Part shown: positions 18,647 to 41,764 of the stretch, piece by piece | How the letters are laid out: every line of letters starts with the position of its first letter | Numbering within the stretch: position 1 is the stretch's first letter | Assembly (NCBI GenBank): GCA_000467715.1 | Contig: AJFK01000779.1 | Span: forward strand, 1-61,218 | DNA from: Hysterium pulicare CBS 123377 | Taxonomy: Eukaryota; Ascomycota; Dothideomycetes; Hysteriales; Hysteriaceae | DNA length: 61,218 nucleotides | Direction: 5' to 3' | Notes under the pieces: generated by a model | Told to the model about the DNA's origin: nothing | Databases searched by the model: none | Seen by the model: the letters and a program-made list of their open reading frames with translations, nothing else | Program-made: the position numbers and the translations under genes

Positions 18647-19139
18647 TGCATGTTTGTTCCCAGATCTCCTTTTCGGGGCAAGAATGCATCAATCACATTG
18701 GTGCTCATGCACATCATAGTTCATCGCTGCTGGCGTTCGTCGTCAGTTCAGGTGCGGCGAGGCAGTACGCCAACCCTCCTTCGACTGCCAATGGAGTTCA
18801 TGCATGTTTCTTCCTAAGTTCCTCTCTTTGGACAGGAACGCATCGATCACATTGGTTCTCATGCACATCATAGTTCATTTGCAGCTGGCGTTCCCGATCA
18901 GCTAAGGCGAGATGTGGTAATACTGGAACCTTCCAGTGGTCTACTTCCTTCCGCTGCCAGCGATGTTGATGCATGCTTGTTCCTAAGTCCCTCTCTTCGG
19001 AGCAGAAATACATCGATCACATTGGTGCTCATGCACATCATAGTTCATTTGCAGCTGGCGCTCACGATCAGCTAAGGCGCGATGGACAATCCTCCAGTGG
19101 CCTACTTCATTCACTGCCTTCTGCTGCTTGCGGCGATGA
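18647..19139. repeat. Three tandem copies of a 154-170 bp unit
   Basis: Units run approximately 18647-18800, 18801-18969 and 18970-19139. Each opens with TGCATG(T/C)TT(G/C)TTCC and contains ATCACATTGGTGCTCATGCA, then ACATCATAGTTCATTTGCAG and CTGGCG (for example 19035-19060). Copies 2 and 3 are closest; copy 1 has lost part of the middle. A fourth opening motif at 19140 begins a different continuation. The ACATCAT...TTTGCAGCTGGCG end also occurs immediately before the GH55 relic (20217-20241), so the unit probably derives from that gene's upstream part. Confidence 0.75.
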
Positions 19140-20075
19140 TGCATGTTTGTTCCGAGGCGACTTTTCAGGCTCTACGGGAGCTTGAGCTCTCCAAGTCAAC
19201 AAGAATGGATGTTGACGATATTATGGATGAGGCCCAGCCTCTACCAGGCCAACTCCTTGATTATCCCAGTCTCATCCCTGGTGACGGTGCAAATGGAGCT
19301 ACCGAAGCTCCTCCAGTTACGCAAGCCGGCTTTGAGGGCACCGCGGTTCAAGATATGACGAAGGATATGGCGATACCCTTGAACAAGCAGTCAATCTGGT
19401 CGTTGATGCATGCTTGTTCCATCATACTTACTTTAGAAGTTATGCAAGCCGGGTTCGAGGGCACCGCGGTTCAAGATATGACAAAGGATATGGCGATCCC
19501 AAATACGCCCGACAACTTGAACAAACAGTCAATCCGGTCGTTGATGCATGTTTGTTCCATCATACTTACTTTAGAAGTTAAGCAAGTTGGTTTCGAGAGT
19601 ACCGCGGTTCAAGATATGACAAAGGATATGGCGATCCCAAAAACGCCCGACAACTTGAACAGACAATCAGTCTGGGCTTTAATCAAGTCCAAAAAGCGCG
19701 CCAAGGAATATCTTGGTCTTGTGGGGCATCGCGAGCCTTGGGCACCATGGTCTTCATTCCACCTATGGTGTTCGTGTTTGTTTGTTCCATCATAGATCCT
19801 TTGCAAGAGAGCACCGCGGTTCGGGAGATGACCAAGGATATGGCGATACCAAACAAACCCGAAAACTTGAACAAACAGTCAGTCTGGGCATTAATCAAGT
19901 CTAAGAAGCGCTCCAAGGAGTATCTTGGTCTTGTGCAGCATCGCGAGCATTAGGCGCCATCACATCCATTCCATCTATATGTTCGAGTATGTTTGTTCCA
20001 CCATAGCTCCTTTGCAGCTAGGAGTCTTGTGTAGCATCGCGACGTCCACCGGTGGTGTTCGTGGATGTTTATTCC
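19082..20075 (+). repeat. Tandem array coding for a repeated TAVQDMTKDMAIP peptide
   Basis: A frame open from 19082 to 19795 (237 aa) contains three copies of a unit reading TAVQDMTKDMAIP..., LNKQS(I/V)(W/R); a fourth copy follows at about 19802-19950 in another frame. CCGCGGTTC landmarks lie at 19341, 19464, 19602 and 19814, so the period is 123, 138 and 212 bp. Units 3 and 4 have an extra segment reading ALIKSKKRAKEYLGLV. Between units sits the (GA)TGCATGYTTGTTCCATCATA motif, which could act as an intron-like spacer ending TTACTTTAG. Diverged motifs continue at 19987 and 20063. I recognise no protein family. It may be a decayed gene or a repeat that happens to stay open; the frame change between units 3 and 4 favours decay. 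Confidence 0.55.
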
Positions 20076-29906: not shown

Positions 29907-31481
29907 GGTTGCTTAAGTAGTTGGTGGTCGTGTAGAGATTGGTTAAAGGTAGGTACAGCTCGATTTAAGCTGTTCGACTATTGGAAAAGACTCTTCAGTG
30001 ATTGAATCTGTAAGGTAAGGCGCTGTAAACGAGCGTGGTTGAGATGTAGGCGACGAAAGTAGGTGGAGTTGATCCAATTGTTCGAGAGTGACTCTAAAGG
30101 TGTTGTAGTCAACGAAGGTGAGTGATAAGCTATTCCAGGTACTGTTAATCGATGAGTCTGGATGCGGTGAAGGAACTATCGATTCAACCGCAGGGTAATC
30201 AATACTTAATATATTCTTCTGTAGTGTGACGATATTCCCCGAAGGTGGTTGGGGTCAGCTGCTAGCCATCGCTGTCGCCTCTCGCTTTTGCAGGAGCAGC
30301 AGGACCAATGCCACGGTGGACAATCCTGCGAATACCACATGCGCGACGTCATCTTTGCGGCGAACACTCTCGTGCGACTGGCCTGTTCTTTGTTGTTTGT
30401 GCAGTTCAGAAATAGAGAATGAGTTGTGAGTGGTTAAAAGAACCCTGACTGGTGAGACCGAGCTACCCGACTTTTGGGGCTAGGCTGCGAGGGAAAACCG
30501 TTTCCCAGCAATATGACGATCATCCTTGACCTTCATTGCCTTGAATAGTGAATTAGGCCCTTCTTTTGCTATTTTTTGATGCCTTTCATATTTGTTCTCG
30601 TACTCGTATTTCGCAGCTCGGGCTACAAAACTTTTCGTTCCCGAATACATCTTATTCTACAAGATATTTGCTGTCCGAGTGCAGTTCAGGCCTCCTAGTC
30701 GATGGCACTCTTACATACTACCACGGACTTTGGATTGAGCTTGGATAGAAATGCTACGAAGAAGTCAACGGGATGATTGATACTTAAAAAACACGTCCAT
30801 CTGATCCTGACCGGTGACTTCAGGTCCCAATCTCTACATGGCGAATATCCACTGGACGTTGAAGTACCCTCTTTGCATCGCTTGCTGTTCGACCCATTGC
30901 CATCAGGATCCTTGTCTCTAAACTTCCCGTCCTTTGAAAGATACTCTGGTTCGGACTTACAAAACTGCAATGCTGAACAGCCTGAATAGTAAGAGGCTCA
31001 AGTCAGAGATCGAGGTATTTTCCTTTCGATATTTCAGGATACTGGAGATGATTGTGGTCGCCAGGTGATCTCAGACATAGAGCGAAGGGAGGGGAAGCCT
31101 GTTTGCCTACATCCCTGAAACGTTTTACCACAAGGAAGAGGCCTGTGTCGTTGTGTTAGCGATGATATTTTCCACTGGTACCTAAAGTATAACAAACGAC
31201 TTTTCTTAGTTCCGACTGTCATCTCAATTTCTCAGATCCTTGCGCGTGAGGAATACATCCGCGTCGTCATGTCTTCAGTATCTAAACAAAGCTGGGGTAA
31301 TAGTCTCGAATGCTCTCGTCCACAGTTTCGCTGGTGAGCTCCAATCTCTAATGCACGTGCGACTCTTCAGCGTGCACATGTCATTTCGAAATAGCTACCA
31401 AACATCAAACTTGGCACTTCAAACCTCAAGTCATCTCACGCGACATTCTACTTCTTTTCCGAATGTCGTCATGCTCACCAT
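29907..31481. other. Gene-poor region
   Basis: About 1.6 kb. The left part is the promoter of the secreted protein gene. Short frames at 30226-30429 and 30777-30989 have no recognisable feature. No tRNA or repeat recognised. Confidence 0.4.
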
Positions 31482-31568
31482 ATGAAAACATCGTTGAATC
31501 TTTCCACTTCTGTTCGTCCACAAGACCTGCTTCTCACATTCGCAGCATTATTTCAGGGACAAGTGACC

Positions 31569-31848
31569 ATGACTGACAACAGTTTCGCAGCGTTGAGAAA
31601 AGCAAAGATAGCAGCCGACAACGAACGACTAAAGGGGATCGAGCAATTTCGCGTCGAGATTGGCGCCCTCACACGAGAGCAGCAAGAACTAATTAATGAG
31701 ATGGAAGATATCAAAAAGCGAAAAGAACAGCTGGTGGAGTTGCGGGCAAGAGTTCAGAAACAGATGTGAGTATCTACTGCTCCCGGAAGGTTCTTTATGG
31801 CTAACGTTCAATACGTGTAGACTATCCAAAAGGCAATTGAAGAAATAG
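31569..31848 (+). CDS. Small coiled-coil protein, member of the local family (status uncertain)
   Basis: Exons 31569-31765 and 31821-31848 (55 nt intron, GTGAGT...GTGTAG) give about 74 aa. Nearly the whole product is heptad-patterned coiled coil: ALRKAKIAADNERLKGIEQ and EQQELINEMEDIKKRKEQL. After the intron the frame that would continue the helix (IQKAIEEIENKKVDREEF) does not join cleanly, and the phase-correct join stops after nine codons, so a small indel may have broken a longer gene. An upstream ATG at 31482 is in frame but poor in character. It is the first of several similar coiled-coil starts in the 31-42 kb block. Confidence 0.45.
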
Positions 31849-32207
31849 AAAACAAGAAGGTCGACAGAGAAGAGTTTTAATTGAGGAGGACCTTGAAGTG
31901 CTACAATGCGGATTGAAAACGTGAAGGGCAACGAGTTGGACTTGCTGCGATGGATCAGCTTACCTGTTCGGGACTTTGCTGTCTTATACTAGGGTTGTAT
32001 GATCGCAAAGGCGACTCGCAGGCTATATTCCCCACTATGATAGTGAATGACTACCTAGGTATTCGGTAACCAAATACGTGGCTTACTAACTTATTCAGTC
32101 GTTGGATCACCGAATTCCCACCTCAAAAGACAGCCGCAAAACATCTAGACCTAAAAACTATTACGCCTATCCAGTTTCTCCAAAAGACATCCAGCCCTCG
32201 AACCACT

Positions 32208-32877
32208 ATGGCTTCTGAAATGGGATCCTTGACCTCCACTCAATCTGCTCCATTCCCTCGGATAGGTTAAAGTCCATGCCTCCGCACTATCTCGAGTATA
32301 TACATAAGCAACTTACCACCAGCATCTCCGATGTCGATCGAGAAATCTCAGACGTAGCGGAACATTTCGACAGCGCTGAGACCGACATGCAAGGATTGTT
32401 ATAAACAAAGGGGTAAGTACAGCCCATATGCGATTGCAGTCGTGTGTATTGCTAGTAATTCGAAGTGCTGACTCAGCGCTTTAACCCAGAACTTTGCGAA
32501 AAAGAGTTTGATCAAGCTCAACCACGCGTAAGCGGTGATTATATTTAAAGCTCTCATTTATGGTTGATTTCATTGAATAATGTAGCGGTGTTGCTTTGAT
32601 TTTGCGTTGAGTTCTCGTTGGTATTTGGTTTCTTTGGTTCTGGTACGCTATCGTCACCGTTGACGACAAAACAGAACTTTGCGAGGAACTCTTGAAATTA
32701 AAGAAGAGAGATGACGAAGGCACCGCTCCCACCCAAGAGGAATCTGGACACCGACAATCGCTTTGCGCCGCATCTGAGCCTGCGACGAGTGATGGATGGG
32801 ATGCAGAGGCGGCCGCTACTACTACTGCAGAGGGAGAACAGATTGCAGGGTATCTGACGGGATCCAAAGCGTCTTAA
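32208..32877 (+). pseudogene. Decayed coiled-coil gene of the local family
   Basis: Open pieces run in order on the plus strand: an ATG at 32208, a frame reading YLEYIHKQLTTSISDVDREI and SDVAEHFDSAETDMQGLL (to about 32400), a TAA where Gln would suit, a GTAAGT donor at about 32412, then ELCEELLKLKKRDDEGT and a low-complexity acidic end to a TAA at 32875-32877. Stops and a frame change separate the pieces. Composition and plan match the neighbouring coiled-coil genes. No domain with cysteines was found here. Confidence 0.35.
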
Positions 32878-33700
32878 GAGATCATATCATAGTAAGTAAG
32901 ATGAGACATAGGACGTCTGAATTGATTCATTAATGGCTAGACAGATGATTATGGCTCCAACAACAATCGGACGAGATTGATTTCGGGGTGTATCCAGCAG
33001 GAAAAGTCTTGGCCTTGGTAAATGCGTGGGATATTATAACCTACTGATAAGAGCATACTAAATCAAGACTTTGATGCTCAGGACCATGGAGAGCGCTTCT
33101 CCTGAATTTCTTTACAAAGTTTGTTACTCAAAATACTCCATTGGTGTCAAATGGCGGACTGGTATCATTTGAGTGTATACCCTCTTTTGTAAGATGTCCA
33201 TTCCAAAAGATTAATCTTTCAAATCACGAAGCCTCATATGCATGTGGACGCCTATTATGACAATCGATCATTCGCTAGTTGTTTTTCCATCTAGGATGCA
33301 TCAAGCGTGGTCTAGAGAAAAGTGAGTGTTCCCTCATCCACACTAGAAAACTTTGACTTTCTTCTGTTCTTCTTGACAACGTACCACACTGAGCCCAGGT
33401 AAGGTGTCTCGTCTTACCGAAGGAGCATTCGAGCAAAACTCAGACTGCAGTTCGCTGTTAGGCGAGTTGAGCCGCGATACCCTGTATTTTTCCGGCTTCA
33501 TGTGACTCTTGCTATACACGCGACTACTCCAAACAGCTTGCCAGATTCGTTTGATGCTTGACCCCAATCGGTCTCAGTCATCACGAGGCCGCCTAATCGG
33601 CCGCCGCTCTTCTTTTGGTCTCCATATCAGCTCCGTTCCTTTATCCACTTCTTGTCTACGTAAGCTCGTACACACCTAGCTCACTGTTACTTTACACAAT

Positions 33701-34324
33701 ATGCCTGACAGCAATCGAAAGAATCTGGAGGAGGGGCCCTCTAATACTCAACTGCCTTCAATATTGCTCAACGGAAACGAAATGACCCAATCCTCTTTCG
33801 AAGAGAGTAACCTGAACGATGACAACAACCATACCACGAATATCATTAACCAAGCTACCTACAACAACTTGCCTAGCACGTCTCCAATTGCTCCAACCTC
33901 ATCCACCGCGTCAAACCTCTCCATCTCCGGGACCCAGATGAACCCGAGAATGATGAGCGTCCCTATCACCGACCTCACGGACTTCCCGAACTTCATAATA
34001 GAGACTGCTGACGGGAGCCTCGCGGAGCTAGCATGTCACATTTGTAACTGCAATGCTTATTTCGCGAAACCCTCCAATAACATTGTCCCTTTCGAAGGAC
34101 TATATGGCTTCCAACGACACCTGCATAGAGACCATGGTATGCGATATTCTCTTGATCAAGTGCTTCTCAAATGCACAGCCCGCATATTTACAGATGAAGA
34201 GATGGATGCTTTAATGATGGGTGATGAGGGAGCACCTCAGCTGAAATACACTCTCTACCCTCCAGTGAGTAGATTTGTTGCTTCTGGTACTGGGGTCGTA
34301 CCGGAGCTTCCCGACGATGAATAG
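33701..34324 (+). CDS. CxxC...HxxxxH domain protein (local family, copy A)
   Basis: A 207-aa frame. The first 90 residues are Asn/Ser/Thr-rich and probably disordered. The domain follows: FIIETADGSLAELACHIC (Cys pair CHIC), a linker, then FEGLYGFQRHLHRDHG, giving C-x2-C and H-x4-H as in a zinc finger, then VLLKCTARIFTDEEMDALM with a third cysteine. The same order recurs in the copy at 40979-41764 and in two decayed copies at 37.0-37.7 kb. I know no named family for it. Binding of zinc and of nucleic acid or protein is inference. A GTGAGT at about 34264 may start an intron, so the C-terminal 18 residues are uncertain. Confidence 0.65.
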   Translation: MPDSNRKNLEEGPSNTQLPSILLNGNEMTQSSFEESNLNDDNNHTTNIINQATYNNLPSTSPIAPTSSTASNLSISGTQMNPRMMSVPITDLTDFPNFIIETADGSLAELACHICNCNAYFAKPSNNIVPFEGLYGFQRHLHRDHGMRYSLDQVLLKCTARIFTDEEMDALMMGDEGAPQLKYTLYPPVSRFVASGTGVVPELPDDE

Positions 34325-34648
34325 TACCGGCACTTTCAGTGGCAGTGGGGAAGCAGAGAACGAGGTAGGTGGTTCTAGAAGAAGGTTAATATGTGTGGAT
34401 TGACTGGTAGTGATAGAAAAGAAGGCTCAGAATATTGACCGAGCCGTGAAGGGACATTTGCTAAAAGTGGGTGAAGAAGGTGAAAGATTAAGTGAAAGAG
34501 GTGGGTTCCTGTGTGAATCAAGCCGGCTGCCATGTTAATAAGTCTATTTGTTTCCAAGTCAGTTGTTGACTACACACTGCGAAAGCTTTGAAGCAATGTG
34601 AATACTACCTCACAATACCAGCTTCGCTCTTCGCCTACCGCCACCACG

Positions 34649-34825
34649 ATGCAGCCTCTCGCTATGGCACCCGTGGACTTGAACACCACCTTTGCTATTG
34701 CTCAAACGACATTAGATTCGCTCTCTTAGGATATTCTGTAAACTATCTGTCATGATATTGACACTCTTCAATCTGGAATCCGTGACGAGATGGCAAAATT
34801 TGCAAGTCCAGAGTCAGCTTGCTGA
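34649..34825 (+). pseudogene. Broken coiled-coil start with two Gln-type stop codons
   Basis: From an ATG in good context (CACGATGCAG) the frame reads MQPLAMAPVDLNTTFAIAQ, TTLDSLS, then TAG (34727), DIL, then TAA (34739), then a helix-like stretch TICHDIDTLQSGIRDEMAKF to a TGA at 34823. Both internal stops sit where Gln would continue an amphipathic helix, so CAG and CAA changed to TAG and TAA by C-to-T mutation is the simplest history. That is the kind of change repeat-induced point mutation makes. The plan matches the N-terminal halves of neighbouring family members. Confidence 0.45.
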
Positions 34826-35040
34826 GCTAGCTAGGGCTAAAGTGGTAGGTAAGGAGGATGGGACACATACGACAATTCGGATGAGGACTAGTTTGAATTT
34901 GTTGACTGGCGAGTCTGATGCTGCTGTACACACTCCAGTGCCGAAGGTAAGTGGCGGAGAAGGTGAGGAAGGTTCTTACCTCAAAGCGCAGTGGGTATAT
35001 TCGTACGGAGGTCAGTGGTAAATAAGCTGTAAGGATCAAG

Positions 35041-35960
35041 ATTGTCATGCCATTTTCTAGTGTTATAGATCTATAAATTACTTACTATCCAAGTTCCTGT
35101 ATAGCGTGAATAAGATTAGTTTATGAGTTCTTGAAGAGGCGACCTCCATTTGAAGCTTTTCCCAGAGCGCAAATTGGGTCAGTACACCTCGGACATCGTG
35201 GTAGGTGTAGTATCTGCAATTCAAAGGGAACAATATGTTTCTTAGTCTCTTTACAGCAAAGAATTATTCTAGTCAAGTCTCAAATAATATCTCGCCTTTG
35301 ATCACTTGATATTCTATGGCAGAGTGGCAGAGTTCTAAATCTTTGGCCGGATACACTAGTAAGAGATACTAACCTAAAGAAACGTTAGTGAGACACATTG
35401 ACCAATCACGTTTGTTAGCGCCTTGGAAGGACTGCACCTGAAACCTCCACCAGAACTCAACCAACAGGACTCCAAGACCTTTACACGTCACAATACCGAC
35501 TGAACTCATCACATAGCCTCCGGAAAGCAACGCCGTCGCTCGCGAGGAAATCGGAGAGGCAGAAATTGACCAAAGACAGACAAACAGCGCAAGGCAAAAG
35601 GAGCGCCAAGCGTGCTATGCAACATGCGACATGCAACGATTCGTGATTCAAACCCTCAGCCATCTGGCACTCCACGCCTCAGACACTGCTTCAGACGCTA
35701 CCTCAAACTCGCCAATGACCTAATTCATTAGACGCCCGACCCCTAGCTCTCGACATGAAAGTCTCATATACATATTCCTGCCCTGTCGGTCAAAATGGCC
35801 TGATTTTCACCTGCTCGTCGTTCTTTTATTCATTCATTTTTTTCTGGTGACTGGCTCACTTTTCATAGCGTAATACGCTTTGGATTTCTTCGAATACCCT
35901 TTAGATATCCTTGAGTTTCTGTTACCCATCTCAACCTAAGCTCTTAATACCTACGACAAA
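35041..35960. other. Intergenic region
   Basis: About 0.9 kb containing the promoter of the secreted protein gene at 35961, with a pyrimidine-rich tract at 35800-35850. No gene or repeat recognised. Confidence 0.45.
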
Positions 35961-36437
35961 ATGTACAACTCATTCGTTACCAACATCCTCCTGCTCATAT
36001 CCCTCTTCCATGTCGCCGTCCTCGCCGAAGCAGACAAATACCCTGCCGTACTAGCCGTCCGCCAAACCACTGCTCCCAACGCTCAATGCCTCGACTACTC
36101 CCGCACAGCCAACCTCTCTACCATCGGCGCCAACAGCACCTACCGCTCCGCCTTCCTCCAAGCCTCCAATGTCGGCACGATTTACAACGCCCGAATGCTC
36201 GACTCCGCCATCGCGCAACTGCCTGCGCTAACCAGTAACGCGGCTTTGAACCAAGCGTGCGGAAACCTCACGACGATTGCTTTGACGGAGGCAGAGCTGA
36301 ATTTCACAAAGGGCACTGTGGCGCAGTTCTCGGGTCTTGTAGGGAATCCGCAGGAGATTTTTGCTGGACCGGGGTTGGCGGTCATCGTAGGGGGAGTTGT
36401 GTTAATTTTTGGTGTGGTGTGGATTTGCATGCCCTAG
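35961..36437 (+). CDS. Small secreted or surface protein with C-terminal hydrophobic segment
   Basis: An intronless 158-aa frame. Residues 1-22 (NILLLISLFHVAVLAEA) form a signal peptide. The middle has two cysteines (QCLDYSR, NQACGNL), several N-glycosylation sites (NLS, NST, NLT, NFT) and Ala/Ser/Thr-rich helices. The last 20 residues (LAVIVGGVVLIFGVVWICMP) are hydrophobic and reach the end with almost no tail, which fits a C-terminal membrane segment or a GPI-attachment signal. I recognise no family. The N-terminal LAVRQTTAP stretch could be a Kex2-type junction, though only one Arg is present. Confidence 0.7.
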   Translation: MYNSFVTNILLLISLFHVAVLAEADKYPAVLAVRQTTAPNAQCLDYSRTANLSTIGANSTYRSAFLQASNVGTIYNARMLDSAIAQLPALTSNAALNQACGNLTTIALTEAELNFTKGTVAQFSGLVGNPQEIFAGPGLAVIVGGVVLIFGVVWICMP

Positions 36438-37029
36438 GGGATACAGAATGGAAGATGAGAGGAGGAAAGGAGAAATGGGAGCCATGCTTAGGAAGAACGG
36501 GATACTGTTGACATTGAAATGATTGGACATGGGATATGTATCTAAATGTGGAGGGTTTGGTCTGGGTTTCGACAACTGAAGAGAAAGGAGCTAAGATTCT
36601 TGAAGATAAAGAAATGAGTATTCATACCAACGCTTATGCTTCATTATGTTCTTCCCCGACCCTCGATATGTGGAACTGCGCAGTCATATGTCCAACGACA
36701 ACACTAAGAACGAGCTAAATATGGAGACCCATCTAGAAACCTTCACCAGAGTTCAAGATTCATATTTTCTCTTCCTATCAACCCCAGAATTCAGTACATC
36801 CTTCCCAATATCATCCTGAATATCATCCTCTGCACTCTCCAGTTTCTTCTACAAAGTCTAGAATCCCAGGCTGTTAGCACTAACGATCTCAACGGACGAC
36901 GACGATTAAAACTCGCTTACGTCCTTGTGCTTCTGAAGTGTGAAGCTTGCTGCTGGCTCCTTGACCGCCAACTTCTTTAGTGCTTCCTCAACTGTACGAT
37001 TTTGCACCTCAACAATTTATATTCTACTC
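36438..37029. other. Intergenic region
   Basis: About 590 bp, probably the 3' UTR of the secreted protein and the 3' flank of the decayed copy to its right. Nothing else recognised. Confidence 0.45.
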
Positions 37030-37494
37030 CTACCCCTGTCTTGCTGCTGACCTATACTCCTCCCCAGCATGCTTTGTTTCACAACGCTTTGAGCTATCGT
37101 CAGCCGACCCATTTACAAGACCATAAACAGTCGCCGTTTTGTTGTTTGCACGCTTGTGAGACCAGATAGTCGGAGCCTCGGCATCGCCGCTTCTGATCAT
37201 CTCAATCTCTTCCGCAGAATACTCTTTGAAAGCGCAGTCGTCGAGTACCATTTCATGAGAGCCCTGGAAGCCGTGCTTTTGACGAAGGTGGTTGAAGAAA
37301 GAAAGCATGCCTCGAAAGGGTAGCATTTTGCTGGTTGAAACGTCTGCACCGTCGTACTGAATGGCATTTCCGCCGCATCGAAACTCTATGAACTTTCTCT
37401 TTCAGGTTTTGACAATGAAAGGGTACTCGTCGAGTGAGGGGGTATGGAGAGGACCAAACGGATTTGTGCGAGCCGGGCCAGGGGCAACGCCCAT
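37030..37494 (-). pseudogene. CxxC...HxxxxH family, copy C, broken by a nonsense codon
   Basis: From an ATG at 37494 the frame reads DEYPFIVKT, a TGA at 37404-37402, then KRKFIEFRC, FRGMLSFFNHLRQKHG, VLDDCAFKEYSAEEIEMIRSG and on to a TAG. The spacing from FI to Cys is 15 residues, exactly as in copy A, so the TGA replaces one codon. The second cysteine of the CxxC pair is also gone (RCGGNA), while H-x4-H and the tail are kept. One nonsense change plus loss of a ligand residue argues for a pseudogene, although the 98 codons after an internal ATG at 37326 remain open. Confidence 0.55.
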
Positions 37495-37553
37495 GGTAGA
37501 CGAATAGGGAACAGTTACCATTATTTGGAGGAGATCGATTGTTTAGTCCCCTC

Positions 37554-37703
37554 TTATGATGCGGAATATGCCTTTGATACGCGGCGGTAATGAATTTTAC
37601 TTCCAAAGTCCGGAGGCCTCGCTTCGTCCTTCCTTAAGGCCACGATTTGTTCTGCTGAGAATTCTCGGTTGACGCAGCTATCTAGCACCTCCATTTGTTG
37701 CAT
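37554..37703 (-). pseudogene. C-terminal fragment of the same family, copy D
   Basis: A 49-codon stretch reads MEVLDSCVNREFSAEQIVAL then RKDEARPPDFGSK, which aligns with the tail of copy C (MVLDDCAFKEYSAEEIEMI, then acidic/Pro end) and of copy A. An acceptor-like CTCCATAG lies just upstream at about 37711, consistent with the family tail forming its own exon. The Cys/His part is not found upstream. It lies 5' of copy C on the same strand, so the two probably arose by tandem duplication. Confidence 0.45.
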
Positions 37704-37763
37704 TCTCACGCTATGGAGAGAAGCAAGAGGCAGTGTTATGATGTTAGGGACGTTAGTCAGCAT

Positions 37764-38123
37764 GTCTGGCAGGAATACCTAAGTTCAACACACCCTCTGT
37801 AATTTAGCTTCTTAGCGTTGATATCACTCATTTGATCACCTATTGCGTCCCCCTTAGTTGCACCGCGATAGGCAGCCACTTCATTTGAACAACCCAATTA
37901 CCAATCATAGGATTTGCTTCAAACATACATCTAAGGTGAAATTTGCATTTGACGCGAGTCTATCATGAATATTTGTGTGGCTATGGGGACGTCTCTCTCT
38001 CACCGTTGCACTACCTGTGGTAGAGCAAGCAAAGTTGCCGATTCAGAAGCCAATATATTGGCGCAAACGGAGCTCGTCCTGTTTCAGAACTGGAGACCAA
38101 TCCTGTACCTGTTCCGTTGGCTC
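37764..38123. other. Intergenic region
   Basis: 360 bp between copy D and the SnoaL-like gene stop. No gene recognised; the plus-strand open frames here are antisense to the SnoaL-like gene further right. Confidence 0.4.
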
Positions 38124-38601
38124 TCAGTTAACACCATGCTCTGGCTCTGCGCCCACCGGTCCCCAGATTGAGCGTTCAATCAGACACTCCATCTTTCCGC
38201 TCTCCTCGTTGACCTTGGCAAACATGAAGCTCTCAAACACGATATCGGCCCCGTCGACCTTAATGGTGCCCGTCATGCGTGCCGCCAGCTGGTTACCGTC
38301 ACGGAGGAACTCGTCACTAAGCACGGTAAGAGGTAGACGTCAGCCTTAAGTTGCGCCTTTGCATAGAGACAAAGGCAGGAAAGTGCACCCACACGACCGG
38401 CTCGTAGTCGCTGATCTTGGCCCGCCACTCGGCGATGCCCTTGACATAGTCATCGTACGCGAGGCGCTGGCCATTCATAACGTGGTAGAAGGTCGGTGTC
38501 GCGGTGCCCTCTGCATATAACCTGGCATCCCCAGCCGGGCCGGTGAGGCTCCACTTCATGGCGCGCTGGAAGCCCTCGCGCGTGGACGTGTATTCCGACA
38601 T
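38124..38601 (-). CDS. SnoaL/NTF2-like small protein
   Basis: Exons 38601-38393 and 38316-38124 (76 nt intron, GTGGGT...GCTTAG) give 133 aa, the usual size of a single cone-shaped NTF2-like domain. The N-terminal helix (YTSTREGFQRAMKWSLTGPA) and the run YDDYVKGIAEWRAKISDYEP, then DEFLRDGNQLAARMTGTIKV and a beta-rich end (VFESFMFAKVNEESGKMECL, IERSIWGP) match SnoaL-like proteins. Members include polyketide cyclases and small-molecule isomerases, many uncharacterised; the substrate here is unknown. The gene has higher GC and codon bias (many C-ending codons) than the surrounding 31-42 kb sequence, and stands alone, which could mean transfer or a surviving single gene. Confidence 0.75.
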
Positions 38602-39580
38602 GGTCCTTGATTGTGCTTGGGGAGGAGATTTGGTGGATGGTGCTAGTGCAAATTACGAAGAATTCGAATGCCCGGCAACCGTACAGCGCTGTTCTCTACG
38701 AAAAAGAGGAACCCGGCAAGCTCTGCATGAGGTGATGAAGGCGCTACCCGGAACGATACTTATCACCAGGTTTTGTGCGGGGAACACAACGCTCGCCGCA
38801 TTTCAGAATAGACATTCGTCGTTGGTGCCCGGTTTCGTTGGAAGCTTACGTTGGACAAAGTTTATGTCTGGCCGTCAGGTCTTAAGGCATCGAATCCTTG
38901 TGACGATCATACCATGACAAGAATGAAGAGCAGAACAATACGACCAATGCGGCGTTGTATCCGCGAGATGAGGTCAGGTATCCGGATCAGTCGCCTGGAA
39001 CCCGCAGCCGGGGAACAATAAAATGCTAGGCGTTCCTGACCTACATGAAGTCCGTGAACGATCGCCTTAGCATCAGCGGTGGCACAACCTCGGAAGTAGG
39101 GTGGATTACAGGGGACGGCTAGGAACTAATAGAATGGCTGAGCAATAGCTCTTTAAAAAGGGTATTATCCAGTTTGTATACAAGTAATAATCTTCCGCTT
39201 CATATACTAAATAGACTCTTCAATCATTTGAATGAGGTAAGTATAAAAGAATCTCAATTCAAAGAATATTTGCATCACATTATCCAGATATCCATCATAC
39301 CAATTTCTCAGAGCAACCCCGACCTCCTGGGCGGTTCCAAGGTTTCTTGGTTGCTCTATTACCATGTAAATCTAGATTGGACATACTCTTTCATCAACTT
39401 AGAATATCTGCTTTCACCAAATGACCTCTTCACTCTATGCAGGATCATCCAACGTCAGGCATCCTCATGTGACCTTGTAACGTATCCCGATGTTTGTATT
39501 CTTATCTATATATAAGTATGTTTCTAGTCCGAGTCTTCTTTCCATCAGCAGCTTCTTCGACAGGATCAATTCTCATTACC
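38602..39580. other. Intergenic region
   Basis: About 1 kb including the promoters of the divergent genes on each side; the right half is AT-rich (39160-39540). Short frames there show no domain. Confidence 0.4.
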
Positions 39581-40026
39581 ATGGCGAACAGCAATAAGAA
39601 AAAAGATGAAGAAAAGATCTGGCACGAGATCAATGAAATTTATAAGAGGGAAAAGACCCTGACTGGAGAGATTAGCGTGATAAAGAGGTCGGTAGTTCTT
39701 GTAATATGGGTATGTCAGATACTTTAGCTAACGCTGTCATAATCCAGTTTGTGGGAAAGGAAATAGAAAGAAAAGGGGGAGAGATAGATATTGAAGGTAA
39801 TGAAGACCAAAGTACAACAGCAAAGCCTGTTACTCGAGTAGCAAACAATCAGAAGCAGGCCGAAGAGCGCAGAGAGCAACTTGAGCAAATCAGTCAACGA
39901 AGAGATACGACCAAAAAGCAACACGAACGCCAGACCGAAGAACGTCGAAGCGATGAAGAAAGTTCGCCATCGCCGTACTTACGTAAACACAAGGATGCTC
40001 GTGGAGACGAGGACGAGGGAAATTAG
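39581..40026 (+). CDS. Lys/Glu-rich coiled-coil protein of the local family
   Basis: An ATG in good context (TTACCATGG) starts ANSNKKKDEEKIWHEINEIY, then KREKTLTGEISVIKR. An intron follows. The donor may be GTAGTT at 39692 (56 nt intron) or GTATGT at 39710 (38 nt, very short); both keep phase 0 into FVGKEIERKGGEIDIEGNED at 39748. The rest is charged helix (QAEERREQLEQISQRRDTTK) to a TAG at 40024-40026; total about 130-136 aa. The overlapping frame ends REGSASVDAGRSSDINLEEF at 40093, so an extra intron or a frameshift near the end is possible. Similar to the N-terminal part of the neighbour at 40979, but no Cys/His domain is attached. A further charged stretch at about 40190-40260 may be a remnant of one. 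Confidence 0.5.
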
Positions 40027-40978
40027 AGAGGGTTCTGCTTCTGTCGATGCTGGTCGTTCATCCGACATCAACCTTGAAGAATTTTTGGACTGATAACCAG
40101 AGGTAAAGATCTCTGCCACCATAGTTGTATGAAGCCCATATACTTAGGCACTTTATGACTATAGTTGCCAGCTCATAGAAGGAAGAATGAACCCAAGACC
40201 GTGGTAGAGTGGGATAAGATTGAAGAAGAAATGGAGGAGGCTGTGCATATTTGTAGACTAAAATACGGAGGTACGTCCTCAGCGCTGCCCTTTGGGGACT
40301 CTCCTTCGGTTGATTTTTGGGAAGGTAATGTTATATGAGGACTGTGCAAGAGGCGCAGAACGAGGCTGCAGGCGACTCCCTGACACTGAGACTGGCAAGA
40401 CTGTTTGAATTTCTTTCTAGAAGATCCCGTATAGGTAAGGTACCGTTGGATTTGATCACTCATCGGAGCACTACCAAACACGTTCAGAGTTTGTCGCCGA
40501 GAAAGGGGGAAAAGAAAAAGACCGAAAAAGTTTCGAAAACATAGAAAGCAAACAATAAGAGACTTGAGAATGTATTAATGTGACTAAGACTAACAGAACG
40601 TGTTTGTATTTTGCCTTGACTTTGACAACCTGATGTTTAGGTGTTCAGTGTTGTGTACTCTCTGGGAAAGCGCAAGGATTCAAACATGCTTTGTTCCGAT
40701 GCTCCAAGACCCGCCAAATCAGGATTTGTCTGTTATCAAACCTTATACATCCTATGGCATCAAGGTTTGGAATCGATTTGGCTGCTCGACAAAGAAACTC
40801 CTGGAACTATGCTGTGGTCTCCACTACAGCGCGACATCCACCACAATCACATGACAAACGATCGATAAGCTTGCTTCAACAAACTGAGTCTAGAAACTAG
40901 TAAGTATTCGTGAAGTGCACCTCGCTCCGTCTTTCCACAATAGATCACTAGAATCGGTTTTCCCCAGTTCAGATCAAG

Positions 40979-41764
40979 ATGACGGCCGAACTTGACAAAT
41001 TGCTCGAAAGAATGGATGTCCTGAAGAATTGTAGATCAGAGCTACAAGAGATGATAGACAAGGCAAAGGAAAGTCTTAAGGCCGCGGAGGATGATATCAA
41101 GGCCGCAGGCAAACAAATCAGCAGCGCCACACCTGTGAGTGGAGAAAAGCCTTAAAACTATACATGCACTGATAGCCTTGCCCTTTAGGAACGATCGAAC
41201 CTACGAATCCAGTCTGACGATGCTACGACTATGAGCGGGAATTACGAAACTACAGCTCATCCGCTTGTTATCGTGCAAAATGGCAAGTGGATAGAACTGC
41301 GTTGCAAACTTTGCAGTTACAATAAAACGGTAGATAAGCTGAAGGGTGGATACAATTACATTACCGGAGTAGAGGGGTTCTGTTCCCATTGCCAGTCCAA
41401 ACACAAAGCCTCATACAGGGCATTACCCCCTAGACAAACGAAGTTCGCCTGGATTATCAAAGAATGCACTTTTCGTATACCGGAGGAAGAGGAGATTGAC
41501 CAGATCAAGAAACATGGGGAAATCGGGTTTCGTCGTATGTTACTTCTCCACGTTGAAATGATCCCTGTTAATCTTTGCACTCTAGCCCTCCCCCTTCTGT
41601 CCGACCCCAATGCAGCTCGTGAAGTGGAGGACGAAGATATAAATGATGACGCCTCCTCCGCTAGCTATAATCCAGAGCACAACGGAGGCAGGAAGGCGCA
41701 CTCCATTCGAACACGGAATGCTTCTTCAGGTGCGCGAGCTGCGCACGAGAAGAACAGGGAATAG
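40979..41764 (+). CDS. Coiled coil plus CxxC...HxxxxH domain protein (local family, copy B, most complete)
   Basis: Exons 40979-41134, 41189-41534 and 41586-41764 (introns 54 and 51 nt; donors GTGAGT and GTATGT) give about 226 aa. Residues 1-52 are a coiled coil (LLERMDVLKNCRSELQEMI, then DKAKESLKAAEDDIKAAGKQ). The domain then reads HPLVIVQNGKWIELRCKLC, GVEGFCSHCQSKHK and IIKECTFRIPEEEEIDQIK, giving C-x2-C, H-x4-H and a third Cys, in the same order as copy A. The C-terminal third is acidic then basic and disordered. The first intron joins coil to domain in phase 0, which makes this the best template for the family's full form. Function unknown. A short ORF ending at 41155 would result if intron 1 were retained. 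Confidence 0.65.

Follow-up and report, generated by a model that had tools for sequence, protein, structure and literature searches.

An apparently undescribed, clustered family of zinc-finger-like genes with intact and decayed copies in Hysterium pulicare

The window, i.e., the whole 61,218-nt stretch analyzed here, came from Hysterium pulicare CBS 123377 (assembly GCA_000467715.1, contig AJFK01000779.1) and corresponded to contig C505 of a 37.2-Mb source assembly of 596 contigs. Its region from 31,482 to 41,764 harbored one cluster of an apparently undescribed family of zinc-finger-like genes, represented by copies A to D and a decayed first exon:

32219..32389, plus strand: decayed first exon, of the type on contig C489, in a frame different from that of the ATG at 32208
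33701..34324, plus strand: copy A, intact 207-aa open reading frame (ORF) with a polar N-terminus followed by a predicted zinc-finger domain at 33968-34240
37165..37443, minus strand: copy B, decayed domain with one in-frame TGA and a C-x2-C motif lacking its second Cys
37554..37763, minus strand: copy C, only the C-terminal part of the domain, B-like
40979..41134, plus strand: exon 1 of copy D, charged amphipathic helix
41135..41188, plus strand: intron 1 of copy D, predicted, 54 nt, phase 0, GTGAGT...TTTAG
41189..41764, plus strand: exon 2 of copy D, with a predicted zinc-finger domain at 41243-41533

No joined helical exon was found for copy A, while copy D displayed, by sequence, a possible second intron (41535-41585, 51 nt, in-frame). 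Copies B and C adjoined in the same orientation, and they may be two fingers of one former gene, with C possibly the first. The original prediction had placed intact and decayed copies side by side in this block, and this was what was found: A was intact, and B, C, and 32219-32389 were decayed. Among the related pieces it had named, the domains of A, B, C, and D, the start of D, and the decayed exon near 32208 held up, while a coiled-coil start at 34649 was not supported.

A domain profile built from copies on three other contigs only, with all window sequences left out, recovered A (33701-34324) at an E value of 7.7e-21, D (in its exon 2) at 2.9e-13, and B (minus strand) at 6.6e-9. Single-protein genome searches with eight family proteins gave matches (E<0.09) confined to contigs C505, C489, C52, and C341, and at least about 15 loci were counted in four clusters; this number was a lower bound because only the best candidates were scored. 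The clusters were as follows:

C52, 1-14 kb: six places
C489, 0.4-7.5 kb: three genes with five fingers, two of the three genes being two-fingered
C341, 31-36 kb: three places, one with the first half of the domain only
C505 (window): A, D, and B/C

A contig end lay no more than about 1.2 kb from the start of each of the C52 and C489 clusters, and thus further copies may sit in gaps. The copies were not near-identical: domain identity between them was only about 18-50%, as in old and divergent paralogues.

The 16-row domain alignment (B included) had a mean column identity of 30%. Its C, N, H, and H columns were invariant in all 16 rows, and the second C was present in 15; C-x2-C plus H-x4-H was accordingly seen in 15/16, the exception being B, one Cys short. 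The distance from the second Cys to the first His varied from 19 to 33 residues, and the H-x4-H spacing was constant. AlphaFold predicted the element order beta-beta-alpha-alpha-beta-alpha for both A (plus two extra short strands; mean predicted local distance difference test score [pLDDT] 60) and D (mean pLDDT 52), with no metal modeled; the two runs used three window sequences and one common alignment, and they were not independent. Foldseek and VIA returned no meaningful match. Because of the ligand residues and the element order, the domain would qualify as a C2H2-type zinc finger in the wide sense, having two Cys and two His that were ordered and conserved. The classical C2H2 motif is C-x2-4-C-x12-H-x3-5-H; the family domain resembled it in ligand types, ligand order, and the beta-beta-alpha unit of the low-confidence models, but differed in its 19-33-residue gap, its predicted alpha-beta-alpha tail, and its one or two fingers in place of tandem arrays. 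The original prediction of a multi-copy clustered family was borne out by the count of about 15 loci in four clusters of this genome; the similarity between copies was clear, here by profile-to-sequence rather than profile-profile searches, and the domain motif was, as described, kept while the rest diverged, since the ligand residues stayed near-invariant at so low a mean column identity.

A helical start was visible in 10 copies: D, three on C489, and six on C52. Automatic modeling gave exon 1, a 54-72-nt phase-0 intron, and exon 2 for seven of these 10 (D, three on C52, and three on C489), and the first residue of exon 2 was Glu in all seven top-listed models; it yielded no junction for the remaining three C52 copies. 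In two C341 copies, the first exon was short and the intron longer. Basic K-[KR]-x-[KR] stretches resembling nuclear signals were found in four of the seven proteins examined (of about 15), and none occurred in A or D.

No Pfam family reached its cut-off for the window pieces, the family ORFs, or the 16 domains; no family name had come to mind for the initial reading of the sequence either, and what Pfam offered was sub-threshold only: DUF7892 (PF25422), a distant look-alike of the finger, for three of the 16 domains (best E value 0.0051), and zf-BED, Zap1_zf1, zf_ZIC, and ten others for one domain each. Protein database searches gave no match at E<=0.01 with either copy A (64 candidates) or the 13-row alignment A1 (6758 candidates) as query. 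With 5.8 billion sequences in the database, a match at this E value would need an estimated 39 bits or so, a demand under which relatives diverged to the degree of many of the present paralogues would escape. A control query with DUF7892 returned 700 matches, among them many named fungi that we take to be Dothideomycetes, and therefore the database covers such fungi. No description of such a family was found in the titles and abstract openings of the literature consulted. From these searches the family is apparently lineage-restricted.

The copies were homologous, shared an exon layout, conserved their ligand residues, lay in clusters, and had in part decayed. The explanation we favor, tentatively and at somewhat less than an even chance, is a family of C2H2-type zinc-finger proteins that is lineage-restricted and evolves by birth and death, one of its four clusters lying in the window; the same element order in the A and D models was counted for it. 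Most members would be small proteins with (i) a charged helix encoded by exon 1 and (ii) one or two C2H2-type fingers encoded by exon 2, each finger consisting of C-x2-C, 19-33 residues, and H-x4-H within a predicted beta-beta-alpha unit, with alpha-beta-alpha elements behind it. The four ligand residues would bind zinc, the protein would probably be nuclear with its finger contacting DNA, RNA, or a protein partner, and the clusters would have arisen as genes duplicated long ago, diverged, and in part were lost. As a putative role for the charged helix of exon 1, self-association is suggested, but among the joined copies only D gave a convincing heptad signal (reached by 2/500 shuffles); a signal at or under 5% of shuffles was obtained for five of 15 pieces, all window-derived, and for none of the nine C489 and C52 first exons.

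With such a family, an unannotated, gene-poor-looking block becomes part of a defined family, for which a motif, a gene layout, and the addresses of about 15 loci are available. Should presence/absence variation among strains or diversifying selection prove true, it would offer a compact new system for the gain and loss of fungal recognition proteins; otherwise, it would be a clean example of a zinc-finger family that is old, apparently confined to one lineage, and outside Pfam coverage.

The many old, divergent, clustered paralogues, intact beside decayed, and the lack of outside relatives in the protein database (E<=0.01) would also fit a genome-conflict family, i.e., fast-diversifying zinc-finger proteins for allorecognition, mobile-DNA defence, or biotic interaction. 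This reading is unlikely, since neutral birth and death predicts lineage-restricted clustering too, and the ORFs scanned yielded no HET, NLR, or transposon gene as a companion. HET, NLR, and transposase families were absent from the 10 chosen ORFs of the other clusters' loci (E<=0.1) and, a sub-threshold NACHT match aside, from the 10 chosen window ORFs (E<=0.01); the protein behind that sole match (22 bits versus a cut-off of 26.7) was an AAA ATPase located at the edge of the window, and it also matched ORC4_C. Likewise, the eight window pieces, 13 family ORFs, and 16 domains gave no match to a HET, NACHT, or NB-ARC domain. The roles originally proposed (heterokaryon incompatibility, host interaction, or anti-transposon) are a guess.

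Given less credence is a descent from the DUF7892 protein, one finger of which would have been copied, duplicated, and freed while keeping a partner-binding role. DUF7892 was the commonest weak Pfam match and also matched two of the 13 family ORFs (best E value 0.024); the invariant Cys/His columns of 21 DUF7892 relatives formed two fingers, each C-x4-C or C-x2-C and then H-x4-H, like the family finger; and both of these finger regions were the top two profile-profile matches, their scores (28.7 and 20.4) exceeding those of 20 column-shuffled controls (<=15.7) and of the reversed alignment (17.8). However, the profile-profile match covered 25 columns with an hhalign probability of 10%, and copy D scored 14 bits (13.8 bits as whole exon) against the cut-off of 27 bits, aligning with profile positions 76-145 only, of 159, whereas the true DUF7892 member of this genome (C39:4916-5428) scored 173 bits. 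Unlike the family, DUF7892 occupied one place in the genome and was a long conserved protein of Dothideomycetes: the matches listed (120 of 700) were 50-64% identical to this genome's copy, the closest among them being from Zopfia rhizophila (64%) and the next from further fungi taken to be Dothideomycetes, so that by this single gene the source would most likely belong to that class, and because of this identity among the matches listed DUF7892 was regarded as slow-evolving. A common finger type would explain the match sufficiently, and we take the likeness as such rather than as membership.

Ranked below these, and doubtful, is a fungal equivalent of those zinc-finger families that cluster, duplicate, and serve defence or self/non-self recognition, each protein, with its one or two fingers, having a different and changing nucleic-acid or protein target; taken jointly with it and just as doubtful, the loss of old copies would here be visible beside living ones. 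Tetrapod KRAB zinc-finger genes are clustered and duplicating, and the family was like them in both respects but unlike them in having no KRAB match and no tandem finger array.

An origin from a transposon protein, whose DNA-binding part with a BED-like finger would survive as remnants or in domesticated form, is improbable. The zf-BED motif is C-x2-C and then a helix with two His, which the ligand pattern and predicted helix of the family resembled; the single domain matched by zf-BED did so at an E value of 0.011, and the best cluster place (C52:13407-13520) reached 16.1 bits, but no member exceeded the cut-off of 20.6 bits (PF02892). The copies were moreover intron-bearing and not near-identical, no transposase family occurred in the chosen ORFs scanned, and between window positions 31000 and 42500 a 172-bp dispersed element was the sole repeat listed (39 of 304 candidates scored; others may hide). 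An equally improbable reading, that these are mostly non-functional genes drifting as relics of an old family, draws on the decayed B, C, and 32219-32389, the half domain at one of the three C341 places, and a weak codon-usage signal, but most copies kept open frames and ligand residues despite their low domain identity, and seven had usable splice signals.

Two further pieces of the window, with starts at 31569 and 39581, were no more than candidate members of the family:

31569..31769, plus strand: charged helical start
39581..40026, plus strand: charged helical pieces

An intact 158-aa ORF also lay in the block (35961-36437), with a signal-peptide-like start, a hydrophobic C-terminus, and no Pfam match; by eye, it resembled a cell-surface protein. 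Elsewhere in the window, an ORF at 19082-19795 had three imperfect internal repeats with a motif like QAGFEGTAVQDMTKDMAIP, likewise without a Pfam match. Chosen neighbors in the other clusters were ordinary (triosephosphate isomerase, iron alcohol dehydrogenase, and galactose-1-phosphate uridylyltransferase) or had no match. On C341 (L020 5584-7764), two adjacent MYND-finger ORFs followed the finger copies, making a second small zinc-finger group there.

About 110 bp separated the dispersed element from the decayed first exon upstream of it, and the element resembled a short interspersed nuclear element (SINE):

32500..32671, plus strand: SINE-like dispersed repeat, 172 bp, with 13-bp direct repeats at 32487-32499 and 32672-32684

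Rfam gave no match in the window. Copies of this repeat (172-174 bp, 85-99% identical) were present at no fewer than 39 other places, plus one short fragment. Flanking 10-16-bp direct repeats, as a SINE would show, were recognized by eye in four of the five other copies fetched, i.e., in five of six when the window copy was included.
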